From contig NZ_CP048222.1 of NCBI RefSeq assembly GCF_010119975.1, forward strand, positions 7,850,501 through 7,914,500: 64,000 bases of DNA, written 5' to 3'. The position numbers and the translations under genes were made by a program. This DNA comes from Rhodocytophaga rosea. Lineage in GTDB: Bacteria > Bacteroidota > Bacteroidia > Cytophagales > 172606-1. Under the pieces are notes generated by a model, which was given only the letters and a program-made list of their open reading frames with translations, made no database searches and was not told the DNA's origin. Shown one piece after another: positions 50,046 to 56,173 of this stretch (positions within the stretch are counted from its first letter, which is position 1; every line of letters starts with the position of its first letter).

Positions 50046-50166
50046 AACAATATGTCTGGCTGTCCTTTGAATCAAGCCTCTTTTCTCCTGCTATTTAGCA
50101 AATTCATAAAATTATAAAGCTTCTTTTGTTTGATTTGTAAAATACTATTTGTAATGTTGCGGGCCT

Positions 50167-50307
50167 ATGTCAAAACAGCCAGTATTTGATATTTTTTCCA
50201 CTCAACCAGGTATGCTGCCGTACCGGGCAATGATCCGCTATACCGGCTTCCTTACGTGCTGCTTTTCTGCAATTATTATTACAACAGCTATTATTCCAAC
50301 CCTTTAG
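50167..50307 (+). CDS. Threonine/isoleucine-rich leader peptide of the thr operon
   Basis: An ORF of up to 46 residues (in-frame ATGs at 50167, 50212 and 50230) ends with ATT ATT ATT ACA ACA GCT ATT ATT CCA ACC CTT TAG, giving AIIITTAIIPTL. It stops 120 bp before thrA. A cluster of Ile and Thr codons is what a ribosome-mediated attenuator of threonine synthesis uses; E. coli thrL has the same logic. The real start is uncertain: TTTG at 50129 with TAATGTTG at 50152 (19-bp gap) suggests transcription beginning near 50163, favouring one of the inner ATGs (25 or 31 residues). Too short for routine gene calls. Confidence 0.75.
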   Translation: MSKQPVFDIFSTQPGMLPYRAMIRYTGFLTCCFSAIIITTAIIPTL

Positions 50308-50333
50308 GGGGTTGACAGCACACATATTATCAC

Positions 50334-50387
50334 CAGGGAATGGTCCCGCACACAAAGGTTAGCACCTACGTTCCCCTGTTTCTCTTT
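50334..50387 (+). promoter_or_regulatory. Attenuator hairpin before thrA
   Basis: CAGGGAA (50334-50340) pairs with TTCCCCTG (50371-50378) with one bulge, followed by a T-rich tract TTTCTCTTT (50379-50387). A preceding hairpin CAACCC/GGGTTG (50297-50302 / 50309-50314) overlaps the leader stop codon. Ribosome stalling on Ile/Thr codons could switch these structures. The exact antiterminator has not been folded computationally. Confidence 0.6.
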
Positions 50388-50427
50388 CCAAGATTTATCA
50401 TCCGTTTTTATATAGCATTACCCACCA

Positions 50428-52875
50428 ATGAAAGTATTAAAGTTCGGAGGCACCTCCGTAAAATCCCCCGAAATGATCCGTAAATCCGGCGCCATCGTTC
50501 AGGCAGCCTTAGCGGAAGAACCAGTTGCAGTTGTGTTTTCTGCCATGTCGGGCATTACCGATCAGCTGGCCGGTGTCGCTGCCTTAGCCTCACAAGGAAA
50601 CGAAACGTATTTACAGGGACTGAAGGAAATTGAGAAAAAACACATCAGCGCGGTTAGTGAATTATTACCCATTCAACAGCAGAGTAGTGTCCTGGCTTCG
50701 GTAAAAATGATTCTCAACGAACTGGAAGATGTGCTGCAAGGTTTGTTTCTGCTCAAAGAGCTTACCCCCAAAAGCCGTGATTTTGTAATGAGTTTTGGTG
50801 AAAGGCTCTCTTCCTACCTCATCACCGAATACTTCAAATCTATTGGTATGAACGCTTCTCTCACCGACAGCCGCAAACTCATCCAGACAGATAATCATTT
50901 TGGCAATGCAGCTGTCAACTTTGATATAACTTACAAGCACATTGCTGAGCATTTCAAACAAGTAAACAACGTACAAATATTTCCAGGCTTTATTGCGTCA
51001 ACCGCTGCCGGAGAAACCACTACGCTGGGAAGAGGAGGGTCTGATTATACAGCTGCTATTATTGCCGCCGCCATAAATGCAGATATGCTCGAAATATGGA
51101 CAGATGTGGATGGCATGATGACAGCAGATCCCAGAAAGGTGCGAAAAACCTTTCCGCTGGAACAATTATCTTATAAGGAAGCCCTGGAACTTTCCCATTT
51201 CGGAGCCAAGGTATTATATCCACCATCTGTTCAACCAGTGCTGGCAAAAAATATTCCGCTGAAAATAAAAAACACTTTTAATCCGGAAGCTGCCGGAACA
51301 CTCATTACGGAAAAAAGTGGGAATAACCAGCTGGCGATCAAAGGTATTTCATCTATAGATGTGGTGGCACTGGTTACCCTGAATGGGAGCGGAATGGTAG
51401 GTGTATCTGGTTTTGCCATGCGCTTATTCAATGCCCTGGCCAAGCACCGGATTAACGTGATTCTGATTACACAAGCCTCATCAGAGCATTCCATTACCGT
51501 AGCCATAACTCCTCAGGATGCCATTATTGCGAAGCATTCCATCGAAGAAGAATTTAGTCGTGAATTGCAAATGGGTCAGATTGAGCCGGTTGAAGTAGAA
51601 GAAGGACACAGCATCTTGGCCATTGTGGGAGAGAACATGCGGAACACACCTAATATCTCAGGCACTCTTTTTTCAGCCCTTGGCAAAAACGGAGTGAACG
51701 TTCGGGCCATCGCTCAAGGCTCTTCGGAGAATAATATCTCAATCGTAATCAGCCAGTCGGATACTAGAAAAGCACTGAATGTGATTCATGAAGCCTTTTT
51801 CCTCTCGGGCACAAAAGTGTTGCACATTTTTCTGATCGGAACCGGTTTTGTGGGAGGTACCCTGTTAGACCAGTTGCAGAGGCAGGCAAAATACCTGCTG
51901 GAAAATCATGCGGTTGAAATCAGAGTAGCAGGGATAGCCAACCGTCGTAAAATGCTTCTGAATGAGGAAGGTATTCCCCTTTCTGACTGGAAAGCCTTAC
52001 TTGAAAATACTGGCGAACCTTCAGACCAAGGGCAATTTGCCAGCCGCATGCATGAACTTAATTTACGTAACAGCATTTTGGTAGACTGTACGGCCAGTGC
52101 CGAAGTAGTAAGGTTATATGAAGATTCATTAAAACATGGGATTTCTATCGTTACGCCCAATAAAGTAGCTTGCTCTGGTCCCTACGGCCATTATACTAAT
52201 CTAAAACAGATTGCTGCCAGACGGGGGGTAAAATTCCTGTATGAAACCAATGTGGGCGCTGGTTTGCCGGTTATTAAAACACTAAATGATCTTACACAAA
52301 GTGGCGATGAAATCATTCGTATTGAGGCCATTCTGTCTGGTACCTTAAACTTTTTGTTTAATGAGCATAAAGAAGGTGTTTCATTCAGCAGCATTGTAAA
52401 AAAAGCACAGGAACTCGGCTATTCCGAACCTGATCCACGCATTGATATGAATGGTGTAGATGTAGCCCGTAAGATATTGATTCTGGCCAGGGAGGCGGGA
52501 GCAAAGTTTGACTTTGCAGATGTAGTATCAGAAAACTTTCTGCCTGCTGCCTGCCGGAGTGCTGCTTCCGTAGAAGAGTTTTTTAAGATTCTGCCAGAGT
52601 ATGATGTTCATTTTGAAAATATCCGCAAGGAAACAGAAGCAAAAGGTTTACGGCAGCGTTATGTGGCCGTGTATGAGAATAATACAGTTAAAACGGGTTT
52701 GCATATTGTAGATCAGTCACATCCATTTTATCAGGTAGAAGGCAATGACAACATGGTGCTTTTCACCACCGAACGCTATAAAGTTCGTCCGTTGATTGTA
52801 AAAGGGGCAGGGGCAGGAGCTGCGGTAACTGCGGCTGGTGTATTTGCTGACATCATCCGGATTGCTAATTTTTAG
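50428..52875 (+). CDS. thrA: Bifunctional aspartokinase / homoserine dehydrogenase
   Basis: The 815-residue fusion starts with the aspartate kinase signature MKVLKFGGTSVKSPEMIRKS and has TTLGRGGSDYTAAIIAAA and EIWTDVDGMMTADPR. Two ACT domains lie around 310-460 (VGVSGFAMRLFNALAKHRINV and AIVGENMRNTPNISGTLFSALG), the expected threonine-sensing region. The NAD-binding homoserine dehydrogenase domain begins near residue 465 (FLIGTGFVGGTLLDQL), with NVGAGLPVIKTLNDLTQSGDEI and GTLNFLF. It supplies homoserine from aspartate. It heads thrABC and is preceded by the leader peptide and attenuator, so feedback at both enzyme and transcription level is likely. Confidence 0.97.
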   Translation: MKVLKFGGTSVKSPEMIRKSGAIVQAALAEEPVAVVFSAMSGITDQLAGVAALASQGNETYLQGLKEIEKKHISAVSELLPIQQQSSVLASVKMILNELEDVLQGLFLLKELTPKSRDFVMSFGERLSSYLITEYFKSIGMNASLTDSRKLIQTDNHFGNAAVNFDITYKHIAEHFKQVNNVQIFPGFIASTAAGETTTLGRGGSDYTAAIIAAAINADMLEIWTDVDGMMTADPRKVRKTFPLEQLSYKEALELSHFGAKVLYPPSVQPVLAKNIPLKIKNTFNPEAAGTLITEKSGNNQLAIKGISSIDVVALVTLNGSGMVGVSGFAMRLFNALAKHRINVILITQASSEHSITVAITPQDAIIAKHSIEEEFSRELQMGQIEPVEVEEGHSILAIVGENMRNTPNISGTLFSALGKNGVNVRAIAQGSSENNISIVISQSDTRKALNVIHEAFFLSGTKVLHIFLIGTGFVGGTLLDQLQRQAKYLLENHAVEIRVAGIANRRKMLLNEEGIPLSDWKALLENTGEPSDQGQFASRMHELNLRNSILVDCTASAEVVRLYEDSLKHGISIVTPNKVACSGPYGHYTNLKQIAARRGVKFLYETNVGAGLPVIKTLNDLTQSGDEIIRIEAILSGTLNFLFNEHKEGVSFSSIVKKAQELGYSEPDPRIDMNGVDVARKILILAREAGAKFDFADVVSENFLPAACRSAASVEEFFKILPEYDVHFENIRKETEAKGLRQRYVAVYENNTVKTGLHIVDQSHPFYQVEGNDNMVLFTTERYKVRPLIVKGAGAGAAVTAAGVFADIIRIANF

Positions 52876-52991: not shown

Positions 52992-53918
52992 ATGGAAAAA
53001 TCCATTAAAATATTTGCACCGGCTACTGTAGCCAATGTTGCTGCCGGATTTGATATCCTGGGATTTGCCCTGGAAAAGCCAGGAGATGAGATTCTGATCC
53101 GCAAAACGGATAAAACCGGTATTCAGATCAAGAATGAGAGTGCATTCACTTCTATGCCCTTGCAGCCTGAAAATAATACAGCTGGGGTGGCTTTACAGGC
53201 GTATCTGGATGCGATTGAGAGCAAGCAGGGATTTGAGATTACCTTTATCAAAAAAGTAAAGCCGGGAAGTGGCATTGGAAGCAGTGCAGCCAGTTCGGCG
53301 GCAGCGGTGTTTGGTGCCAATGAATTGCTGGGGAATCCTTTGCCAGCTAAAGATTTGGTCGCTTTCGCGATGGAGGGTGAACGCTTAGCCAGTGGTTCGG
53401 CCCATGCTGATAATGTAGCCCCCGCTTTACTCGGTGGTTTTGTATTGATCCGTAGTTACCATCCCCTGGATATTATACCCTTGCCTACGCCAGAACGTTT
53501 GTGTTGCAGTATTATACATCCGCAGATCGAATTAAAAACTGAAGATGCCCGGAAAGTACTCAAAAAGCAGATTACGCTGCAAAATGCGGTAGTACAATGG
53601 GGGAATACCGCCGGTCTGATTGCTGGTTTATTCCGGGAAGATTATGCCCTCTTTGGACGCTCACTGCAAGATGTAATCATCGAACCCACCCGTTCTATTC
53701 TCATTCCAGGTTATGATCAGATGAAGGAAGCTGCTTTACAGGCCGGTGCGCTTGGATGCAATATTTCCGGTTCCGGACCTTCGCTGTTTGCTTTCAGCAC
53801 ATCCTTAGAGGAAGCAAGCCGGGTAGCAGAAGCCATGCAGCAGGTGTGCAGCAGTTTGCAAATTGACAGTGATATTTATGTTTCCAGAGTAAATAAAAAA
53901 GGACCGATTGTTTTATAA
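52992..53918 (+). CDS. thrB: Homoserine kinase
   Basis: A GHMP-family kinase of 308 residues, starting KSIKIFAPATVANVAAGFDILGFALE. The ATP-binding motif 2 is KPGSGIGSSAASSAAAVFGANEL (about 92-114), and the C-terminal NISGSGPSLFAFS is motif 3. It phosphorylates homoserine with ATP for threonine synthesis. The order thrA-thrB-thrC and the small gaps support one operon, though both gaps contain heptad repeats able to form hairpins. The ATG at 52992 begins a family-typical N-terminus. Confidence 0.96.
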   Translation: MEKSIKIFAPATVANVAAGFDILGFALEKPGDEILIRKTDKTGIQIKNESAFTSMPLQPENNTAGVALQAYLDAIESKQGFEITFIKKVKPGSGIGSSAASSAAAVFGANELLGNPLPAKDLVAFAMEGERLASGSAHADNVAPALLGGFVLIRSYHPLDIIPLPTPERLCCSIIHPQIELKTEDARKVLKKQITLQNAVVQWGNTAGLIAGLFREDYALFGRSLQDVIIEPTRSILIPGYDQMKEAALQAGALGCNISGSGPSLFAFSTSLEEASRVAEAMQQVCSSLQIDSDIYVSRVNKKGPIVL

Positions 53919-54009: not shown

Positions 54010-55314
54010 ATGAATTACTACAGTACAAATAAACAGATTGCGCCGGTAAGTTTTAATGAAGCCGTTATCTCCGGACTGGCACCAGACAAAGGCTTGTTCA
54101 TGCCTGAGCAGATTCCGGTATTATCCCAATCCTTTATCCAAAGCCTGCCAGACTTATCTTTTGTCGAGATCGCTACAGAAGTTGCCAGTCATTTTATTGG
54201 CCAGGAAATTCCGGAGAAAGACCTGCAGACCCTTATTGCCGATGCATTCAATTTTGATATACCCCTGGTTGAACTCCGGGAGGATCTGCATATTCTGGAA
54301 TTGTTTCATGGACCCACACTGGCTTTTAAAGATGTAGGTGCCAGATTTATGTCCAGGATAATGGCATATTTTCTCAGGAATGTGGGTCAAAAAGTGTATG
54401 TATTGGTGGCTACTTCTGGGGATACCGGAAGCGCTGTTGCACAGGGTTTTTATAAAGTTCCTGGTATAGATGTCGTGATTTTATATCCATCCGGAAAGGT
54501 GAGCAAAGTGCAGGAAGTACAGTTTACGACCCTAGGTGAAAATATAACGGCTCTGGAAGTAAATGGCACTTTTGATGACTGCCAGCGGCTGGTAAAAACG
54601 GCTTTTGCCGATGTGAACCTTCGCAACAAATTGTACCTGACATCCGCTAATTCAATTAATATCGCCCGTTTGCTGCCACAATCATTTTATTACTTTTATG
54701 CCTATGCCCAGCTACGCAGAAAGTACAAGGGTCCGGTTGTGTTCTCTGTGCCAAGTGGAAATTATGGCAATCTCACAGCCGGATTGTTTGCACAGCGCAT
54801 GGGTTTACCGGTTCACCATTTTATTGCCGCCAGCAATTCTAACGATACAGTTCCGCTTTATTTGCAAAAAGGAACCTATCTACCTAAACCTTCTGTAGCT
54901 ACGATCTCCAATGCTATGGATGTAGGTGATCCCAGCAACTTCGCCAGAATGTCGGATTTATTCGGAAACTCTTTACCTTCTATGCAACAGCAGATTTCCG
55001 GCTATAGCCTGAGCGATGCCGAAACCAGAAATGCCATGAAAGAAATGCGGGATAAATTCCAGTATACGATTGATCCGCATGGGGCTGTTGCATACAAAGC
55101 GTTTGAGACCTACAAAGCAAATGGTGGCGAGGGGCATGGAATTATTCTGGCAACGGCACATCCGGCAAAGTTCGGTGATGTGGTAGAAAGTGCTATTGGA
55201 AAGCAACCCATCTTGCCGGAACAACTGGCTACGCTTCTGAATAAACCAAAAAAGTCTATTCCTATGTCAAATTCCTTCGAGGGTTTGAAAGAATTTTTGA
55301 TGAGCAATGCTTAG
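54010..55314 (+). CDS. thrC: Threonine synthase
   Basis: The PLP enzyme of 434 residues converts O-phosphohomoserine to threonine. The N-terminal MNYYSTNKQIAPVSFNEAVISGLAPDKGLFMPE is family-typical. The PLP lysine lies in HGPTLAFKDVGARFM (about Lys107), followed by VLVATSGDTGSAVAQG, the phosphate-binding segment. The C-terminal GHGIILATAHPAKFGDVV is also conserved. It is the last gene of thrABC and ends 58 bp before proC, which may be transcribed with it. Confidence 0.96.
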   Translation: MNYYSTNKQIAPVSFNEAVISGLAPDKGLFMPEQIPVLSQSFIQSLPDLSFVEIATEVASHFIGQEIPEKDLQTLIADAFNFDIPLVELREDLHILELFHGPTLAFKDVGARFMSRIMAYFLRNVGQKVYVLVATSGDTGSAVAQGFYKVPGIDVVILYPSGKVSKVQEVQFTTLGENITALEVNGTFDDCQRLVKTAFADVNLRNKLYLTSANSINIARLLPQSFYYFYAYAQLRRKYKGPVVFSVPSGNYGNLTAGLFAQRMGLPVHHFIAASNSNDTVPLYLQKGTYLPKPSVATISNAMDVGDPSNFARMSDLFGNSLPSMQQQISGYSLSDAETRNAMKEMRDKFQYTIDPHGAVAYKAFETYKANGGEGHGIILATAHPAKFGDVVESAIGKQPILPEQLATLLNKPKKSIPMSNSFEGLKEFLMSNA

Positions 55315-55372: not shown

Positions 55373-56173
55373 ATGAATATCCTAATTATTGGCGCCGGAA
55401 ACATGGGCAGCACCTTTGCCAAAAGTTTTCTGGCTTCCCACTTTACCACCCGTGAAGAATTATTTGTGCAGGAGAGAAATTCCTCATCCCAGGAACGCAT
55501 TCCGGAGCTATTACCGCAAAACGTTTACAAACTGCCTGGTGCGTATATCTCCCAGGTAGATATCATCGTTATTGCGGTTAAACCACAAGATTATAGTGTG
55601 CTATATCCGGCTTTGCAACCGTTTATTCATGAAGAACAAATTATCTTATCACTGATGGCCGGAGTAAGCCTGACTACACTGGCAGAAACTTTACAGGTTC
55701 CGAAGCTGGTAAGGGCCATGCCAAATCTTCCTTCCCAGATCGGGATGGGAATGACCGTGTTTAGTTGCAGTGCAGGATTATCACGTAAAGAGTTATTCAT
55801 TATACAGAACCTGCTCAATGCAACAGGCAAAGCCTTATATGTGGAGGATGAAAAACTGATTGATGCGGCTACTGCCGTTTCCGGCAGTGGGCCAGCCTAT
55901 GTGTATTATTTTATGAATGCCATGATTAAAGCCGGTGTTGAACTGGGTTTTACTCCTGCCCAGGCAGAGTTGCTGGTGAATCAGACATTTATGGGCTCCG
56001 TGCATTTGCAGAACCGCAACAGCCTCACCTGTGAAGAACTGATGAAAAAAGTAGCTTCGAAAGGAGGAACGACTGAAGCCGCTTTCCGGGTGTTCAACGA
56101 ACATAGTGTTGAGACTGAAATTATGGAAGGATTGTTTGGCGCCTTCAAGCGTTCGGTAGAATTAGGCAGATAA
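55373..56173 (+). CDS. proC: Pyrroline-5-carboxylate reductase
   Basis: The NAD(P)-binding N-terminus reads MNILIIGAGNMGSTFAKSFL, with the C-terminal dimerisation domain showing the family signature VSGSGPAYVYYFMNAMIKAGVELGF and VASKGGTTEAAFRVF. It makes proline from pyrroline-5-carboxylate in the cytoplasm. At 266 residues it is of normal length. It lies 58 bp after thrC on the same strand; co-transcription with the threonine operon is possible but not required. Confidence 0.96.
   Translation: MNILIIGAGNMGSTFAKSFLASHFTTREELFVQERNSSSQERIPELLPQNVYKLPGAYISQVDIIVIAVKPQDYSVLYPALQPFIHEEQIILSLMAGVSLTTLAETLQVPKLVRAMPNLPSQIGMGMTVFSCSAGLSRKELFIIQNLLNATGKALYVEDEKLIDAATAVSGSGPAYVYYFMNAMIKAGVELGFTPAQAELLVNQTFMGSVHLQNRNSLTCEELMKKVASKGGTTEAAFRVFNEHSVETEIMEGLFGAFKRSVELGR

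Follow-up and report, generated by a model that had tools for sequence, protein, structure and literature searches.

The closest described counterpart of the locus reported here is thrL of Escherichia coli, in which a short Thr/Ile-rich leader ORF lies immediately 5' of the bifunctional thrA in thrABC. The same arrangement is present in the window, by which we mean the whole 64,000-nt stretch of the Rhodocytophaga rosea genome that was analysed, but the locus differs from thrL in having another peptide, a block made up of a stop-codon hairpin (H1) and a CATAT motif, and no conserved terminator or antiterminator. It also resembles the hairpin-stabilised leader pauses of E. coli trp and his and the NusG-dependent pauses of Bacillus subtilis, in which a hairpin stands at a set spacing from a downstream signal and a leader is translated, although the pause is putative here. 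A comparative study of attenuators by Vitreschak and others in 2004 reportedly took in some Bacteroidetes, and thr leaders may figure in it. As far as the excerpts of the cited papers used here go, Flavobacterium psychrophilum shows strong signs of leader peptides acting as attenuators ahead of amino-acid operons (PMC9723704), and some 5' UTRs of Bacteroides thetaiotaomicron contain short ORFs reminiscent of leader peptides (PMC7366714), but these excerpts name neither a thr leader nor the H1-CATAT layout. For tlrB, a NusG-dependent pause is described as giving time for translation of the leader peptide (PMC12288461, in part), and for toiL-topAI the translation state of the uORF is described as deciding Rho-dependent termination, as in the read-out proposed below (PMC12121999, in part). 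We found no account of the present thr layout in the literature searched, where most subscription papers are absent; leader-peptide attenuation would therefore be already known in the phylum, and the thr H1-CATAT layout without an intrinsic terminator appears to be the new part. Our main reading, to which we assign a probability of roughly 0.5, is that the locus carries a Thr/Ile-sensing, ribosome-mediated attenuator of thrABC with a read-out other than an intrinsic terminator.

In the window, where all features described are on the plus strand, the leader ORF (50167..50307; 46 aa and a stop, with the ATG at 50167 and the TAG at 50305-50307) is located directly 5' of thrA-thrB-thrC. Pfam domains identified thrA (50428..52875) as a bifunctional aspartate kinase/homoserine dehydrogenase gene (PF00696, ACT domains, PF03447 and PF00742), thrB (52992..53918; PF00288 and PF08544) as a GHMP kinase family gene named homoserine kinase from its family and position, and thrC (54010..55314; PF14821, PF00291 and PF24857) as a threonine synthase gene. 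The proC gene for pyrroline-5-carboxylate reductase, also recognised by Pfam, follows directly 3' of thrC in the same direction (55373-56173). Upstream of the leader, TACTATTTG (50143..50151) is a putative -7 promoter box, so named for its likeness to the flavobacterial -7 box consensus TAnnTTTG as given in the excerpt of PMC9723704, than which it is one base longer; Rhodocytophaga aerolata, with a ThrA 82% identical to that of the window, has TACAATTTG at this place.

The leader of the window encodes MSKQPVFDIFSTQPGMLPYRAMIRYTGFLTCCFSAIIITTAIIPTL, with extra in-frame ATGs at 50212 and 50230, so that there are several possible starts, as the first-pass annotation had remarked; Bacteroidota mRNAs are described as being without Shine-Dalgarno sequences (PMC9723704, in part). 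Its last codons, ATT ATT ATT ACA ACA GCT ATT ATT CCA ACC CTT (50272..50304), include a run with Ile or Thr at 8 of 10 positions. When the 300 nt upstream were dinucleotide-shuffled 2000 times, 2 shuffles attained as much, and for the corresponding run in R. aerolata the figure was 3 of 2000. The two Rhodocytophaga leaders share the N-terminus (MSKQPVFDIFS in the window, MFKRPVFDIFS in R. aerolata) and the Ile/Thr tail, the R. aerolata peptide reading MFKRPVFDIFS...AAIIITIITTL, and differ in the middle. A third member of the family, G002, has a shorter form of the leader that ends in ...AASVIITL and is followed by the hairpin ACCCUCUGAGGAGGGU and then by CACATCGCC; this leader (L043/L006) fell under the cut-off of our automatic screen even though H1 and CACATCGCC are present. 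The element was absent from three of the six family genomes with a thrA start, namely G003 and G005 (Xanthocytophaga and its genus) and G006. The Ile/Thr-rich short ORF that had been noticed before thrABC is thus real, exceeds chance expectation and recurs in relatives. An Ile/Thr-codon-rich short ORF upstream of a biosynthetic operon, as expected of a ribosome-mediated attenuator, is therefore present, and sensing of threonine and isoleucine through translation of the leader is well supported by comparison and would be the best-supported part of the mechanism.

Our survey comprised 240 regions upstream of thrA, taken from relatives, from genomes of named organisms and, for 130 loci (L121-L250), from a sample of 395 genomes across the phylum; ThrA was found at E <= 1e-100 in 297 of these 395 genomes, and the 130 loci are among the best 150 of the 297, those most like the ThrA of the window. 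A thrA start was available for 237 of the 240 loci, and 228 remained distinct when their final 200 nt were compared. Of these, 119 passed a permissive screen for leaders (at least 5/8 Ile/Thr), a figure that takes in chance ORFs, for example L016 and L203, and a strict set (at least 6/8 Ile/Thr), freed of near-duplicates and of 10 leaders of family f23 that had been chosen by eye, comprised 67 leaders. Among 124 phylum-sample loci counted by family, H1 was present in 10/10 of f24, with CATAT in 7, and H1 together with CATAT was found in 22/31 of f26, 11/34 of f43 and 2/2 of f25; in f19, H1 was present in 3/4, none with CATAT, and counts were 0/7 in f48, 0/6 in f36 and 0/3 in f30. All 10 loci of f23 had a different, classical layout. 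By genus, H1 and CATAT occur together in Rhodocytophaga, Chitinophaga and Chryseosolibacter, two Chryseolinea carry the variant CATAC, Ohtaekwangia has H1 but lacks CATAT, and in the Dyadobacter, Runella and Spirosoma loci our screen near thrA found no such leader. This comparison supports the view that the Thr/Ile leader with a stop-codon hairpin is widespread in the phylum.

H1 of the window (CAACCCU-UUAG-GGGGUUG, 50297..50314) holds the stop codon in its loop. A hairpin overlapping the leader stop codon had been proposed at the outset, and it was recovered with a pairing probability of 0.99-1.0 in the three folding models containing it and recurs in relatives: it was found in 57 of the 67 non-redundant, non-f23 Ile/Thr leaders, compared with 725 of 3350 shuffles. 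Its stem sequences fall into several classes, ACCCC/GGGGU (38), ACGGG/CCCGU (13), CCCCG/CGGGG (13), CGGGG/UCCCG (7), AACCC/GGGUU (6), UCCGC/GCGGA (1) and others, and both strand orders occur, some classes being inverted; alignment A2, which pairs inverted stems by sequence and not by structure, was excluded from the pair counts. Folding of the leader as a whole, which the first-pass annotation had suggested as a check, gave a stability no better than that of shuffled sequences (z -0.14 for 268 nt and 0.03 for 146 nt). In leaders with the ACGGG/CCCGU stem (L044, L051, L056, L117 and similar ones), we observed a hairpin 3' of H1 with a CAG triloop (YC-CAG-GR), which has a stem of variable sequence and is mostly without a U-run.

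Eight nucleotides past H1 lies the conserved motif ACATATTATCACC (50322..50334), with its CATAT core at 50323-50327, which is supported by its frequency and spacing. CATAT was present within 25 nt of the leader stop in 49 of the 67 leaders, compared with 824 of 24097 windows (3.4%) upstream of the leaders; neighbouring sequence was chosen as background because shuffles of 25-nt windows recreate CATAT, doing so in 755 of 3350 dinucleotide and 555 of 13400 mononucleotide shuffles. The motif had been written down before the phylum sample was drawn, and it was found in 31 of 37 leaders of that sample and 18 of 30 of the earlier loci. Spacing was measured in 68 loci that have both elements and were picked for a CATAT 5-13 nt past H1, so that the tightness derives in part from selection. 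Here CATAT is 16.5 nt from the centre of the H1 loop (SD 0.69) and 8.6 nt from the end of H1 (SD 1.0), whereas the distances from CATAT to the stop codon form two groups (22 loci at 8-11 nt and 46 at 16-20 nt; SD 3.8), depending on whether the clade has its stop within the H1 loop or past the hairpin. A spacing that is fixed to H1 and bimodal to the stop points to the polymerase and not to the terminating ribosome, and in these selected 68 loci the hairpin does keep a constant distance from the conserved sequence 3' of it, the arrangement expected of a hairpin-stabilised pause. The fixed spacing fits a relation between hairpin and polymerase, and on the spacing of hairpins and pausing there is a study cited in PMC6336406; to our knowledge CATAT bears no likeness to the E. 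coli pause consensus. CATAT at the set distance was missing from 20 of the 88 loci with H1; among these exceptions, five loci with the CGGGG/UCCCG stem have ACATA or ATATA immediately past H1. L116, L117, L176, L184 and L197, also among the 20, have inverted stems and lack CATAT. We considered an antiterminator in which the 3' arm of H1 pairs with the motif (GGGU/AUCC) and dropped it, as CATAT and its spacing are retained in seven loci whose H1 strands are inverted. The CATAT motif at a fixed distance from a hairpin is a candidate RNA-polymerase pausing signal of Bacteroidota.

Downstream of CATAT, the window contains a short hairpin, H2 (GGGA-AUGG-UCCC, 50336..50347), that begins 13 nt past the C of CATAT and competes with a longer stem, its pairing probability being 0-0.35. 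A hairpin starting 9-14 nt past the start of CATAT was found in 10/10 loci of f43, 10/10 of Chitinophaga, which are close relatives, both Rhodocytophaga and 2/7 of f24, and was absent from f26 (0/15), Chryseolinea-type loci (0/7) and other loci (0/3); we therefore rejected H2 as a universal element, its presence being clade-specific. The longer stem (50336-50375) and the tail CTGTTTCT form a terminator-like hairpin (50336..50383; -10.6 kcal/mol) about 43 nt before thrA. Its existence could suggest a classical attenuator of the E. coli thrL type, in which this hairpin is an intrinsic terminator controlled by H1 or the 3' arm of H1, a design that does occur elsewhere, both before thrA in f23 and before trpE in the genome of the window itself, as described below. 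The second hairpin with a T-rich tail, which had been noticed from the sequence, is indeed there, although its tail is poor and weakly U-rich, but it is not conserved: R. aerolata has no counterpart (best candidate -3.5 kcal/mol), and the sequence similarity between the two loci ends just past H2. Moreover, a terminator at <= -9 kcal/mol was present in 2 of the 67 leaders, one being the window, and at <= -6 kcal/mol in 5 of the 67, leaving 65 without a hairpin at <= -9 kcal/mol. In the set of 55 leaders that forms the non-redundant part of the 68 loci with H1 and CATAT, such terminators were no commoner than chance, with 4/55 at <= -6 compared with 15/275 shuffles and 2/55 at <= -9 compared with 5/275. 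In a thermodynamic model applied to the window sequence alone, the terminator-like stem formed with a probability of 0.79-0.88 at seven of eight simulated ribosome positions and 0.56 at the remaining one, and no competing antiterminator dependent on ribosome position appeared; since the stem is favoured at all eight positions, no antiterminator switch is seen. Taken with the two Rhodocytophaga sequences, these results make the classical explanation decidedly unlikely, and the terminator-like hairpin of the window is probably non-functional. In the comparison with relatives recommended in the first-pass annotation, the peptide tail and the first hairpin were thus kept and the second hairpin was not. 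Of the Thr/Ile attenuation that it had proposed, the coding leader and the stop-codon hairpin before thrABC hold up, in R. aerolata, in G002 and across the phylum, but a read-out by a downstream terminator in the manner of E. coli does not.

The same genomes carry terminator-like hairpins in other leaders that, like the thr leaders, place a peptide rich in the regulated amino acid before a biosynthetic gene. For example, a terminator-like hairpin at <= -9 kcal/mol was present in the trpE leaders of 14/14 Bacteroidota genomes, in which Trp leaders (WWW; L329-L342) upstream of trpE are followed by strong intrinsic terminators, whereas it was present in 1 of 13 thr leaders of these 14 genomes, a count from which G002 was omitted and in which L018 was set by hand. 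Specifically, the trpE leader in the genome of the window (L335, G000) has MNIQLHNMAWWWRIPETVV and a terminator of -17.9 kcal/mol. Upstream of ilvD, 5 of 5 leaders had a terminator at this threshold; these are the near-leader loci among the 21 examined, 15 being without a leader and L328 being dropped with its leader 607 nt away. Among 14 his loci, 7 of 11 leaders had one, and the 4/11 without it show that the absence of a terminator is not special to thr. The 7 his leaders outside f43 all had a terminator. We observed that the hisG leaders L294, L295, L306 and L307, all of f43, are His-rich (HHAHHGHHH and similar) and are followed by pyrimidine-rich, G-poor RNA without an intrinsic terminator; they may possibly represent a second terminator-less attenuator. 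In f23 (L191, L193, L195, L200, L210, L213, L216, L218, L220 and L228), the thr attenuators have an Ile/Thr leader before thrA, as in the window, but 10/10 have a terminator with a T-run (-15 to -22.5 kcal/mol), CATAT was found near the stop (up to 25 nt away) in 0/10 and H1 was absent from 9/10 at the score used. Several f23 leaders also contain CGGAGGAAG-like antiterminator candidates. The comparison within one cell, in which trp leaders have strong terminators and thr leaders do not, makes the idea of leader-peptide attenuation through pausing and Rho in Bacteroidota a testable one.

Comparison across loci thus supports an attenuator that has an Ile/Thr-rich leader end and H1, that in most carriers has CATAT at a constant spacing, and that is not followed by a conserved intrinsic terminator, whereas from spacing and base composition we infer that its read-out would consist of RNA-polymerase pausing and Rho. 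RNA polymerase may pause with H1 behind it and CATAT near its active site, which would let the first ribosome catch up. When Thr-tRNA and Ile-tRNA are sufficient, the ribosome would reach the stop codon, melt H1, free the polymerase and dissociate, and the C-rich, G-poor RNA left bare would allow Rho to end transcription before thrA or early within it; under a shortage of threonine or isoleucine, the ribosome would stall in the Ile/Thr run and transcription would continue into thrA. A Rho RNA-binding domain was found in 14/14 genomes, and in the 60 nt from CATAT there was a modest excess of C, which outnumbered G in 44 of 55 leaders, compared with 61 of 109 leaderless regions upstream of thrA (p = 2e-4, kinship uncorrected). 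The wider form of the idea, in which a phylum-specific attenuator couples the leader ribosome to the polymerase through a stop-codon hairpin and a CATAT pause and leaves the decision to Rho, with thr regulated so in many families and trp in the classical way, is one that we put forward tentatively, judging its chance to be below even.

The locus may also be read as control of thrA translation, by attenuation or reinitiation, with the position of the ribosome altering the RNA structure at the thrA start and termination following as secondary polarity. Such control needs no terminator, several clades have hairpins between the leader and thrA, and a like mode of action is proposed for the E. coli toiL-topAI uORF, where Rho would act within the gene (PMC12121999, in part). 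However, the H1-CATAT block is far upstream of thrA, most leader stops being 75-135 nt before it, the position of H2 varies among clades, and an unsystematic look revealed no conserved pairing that involves the thrA start, so that we consider translational control rather unlikely and continue to favour an attenuator acting on transcription.

We also searched for the H1-CATAT block by pattern and by covariance model. The strict pattern GGGG-N7-12-CATATMATCC occurred in 18 of 118 genomes, compared with 1 genome for the reversed control; in 6 of the 18 it marked thrA leaders, and the other sites were taken as incidental because 11 of 13 are inside long open frames, though the reversed control is lower. 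The covariance model R1, built from 47 sequences, matched in 18 of 99 genomes at E <= 0.5, with 14 of the 18 matches upstream of thrA; of these leaders, G130 alone is independent, the other 13 being members of the model or close to one (G182 is 3 mismatches from L242). The remaining four matches, L286 among them, overlap long open frames. In the genome of the window, R1 placed the thrA leader first (E 0.029), followed by one weaker match (E 3.6). When the 700 nt 5' of 49 his, ilvD and trpE loci were examined, CATAT[ACT][AG][CT]C turned up at two places, neither of them beside a leader stop. From these searches the block looks thr-specific in a limited test, R1 leaning on thr codons in a manner that could make it miss other sites. 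An element so placed, with CATAT strongly conserved and unpaired between hairpins and with the R1 matches upstream of thrA, might instead be a structured RNA of H1, CATAT and H2 that binds a protein or small molecule, the leader peptide being incidental or tuning. We regard this as highly improbable, in that the element was never seen without Ile/Thr codons in the loci studied, though those codons were the criterion of the screen, and in that H1, a small hairpin, overlaps coding sequence and H2 is not universal.

No Rfam leader family matched in the window or in 34 related loci, a single tRNA being the one match, and the Rfam Thr leader, which we take to be RF00506, gave no covariance-model match at the gathering score; at E <= 10, the window yielded three unrelated sub-threshold matches. 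A model of the block would aid the annotation of thr leaders, which Rfam missed in the loci searched. In R. aerolata (L041/L002), the stretch that separates the attenuator from thrA also contains TATTTTTG, which fits TAnnTTTG and lies about 45 nt before the gene; it may possibly be an internal promoter that would bypass the leader.
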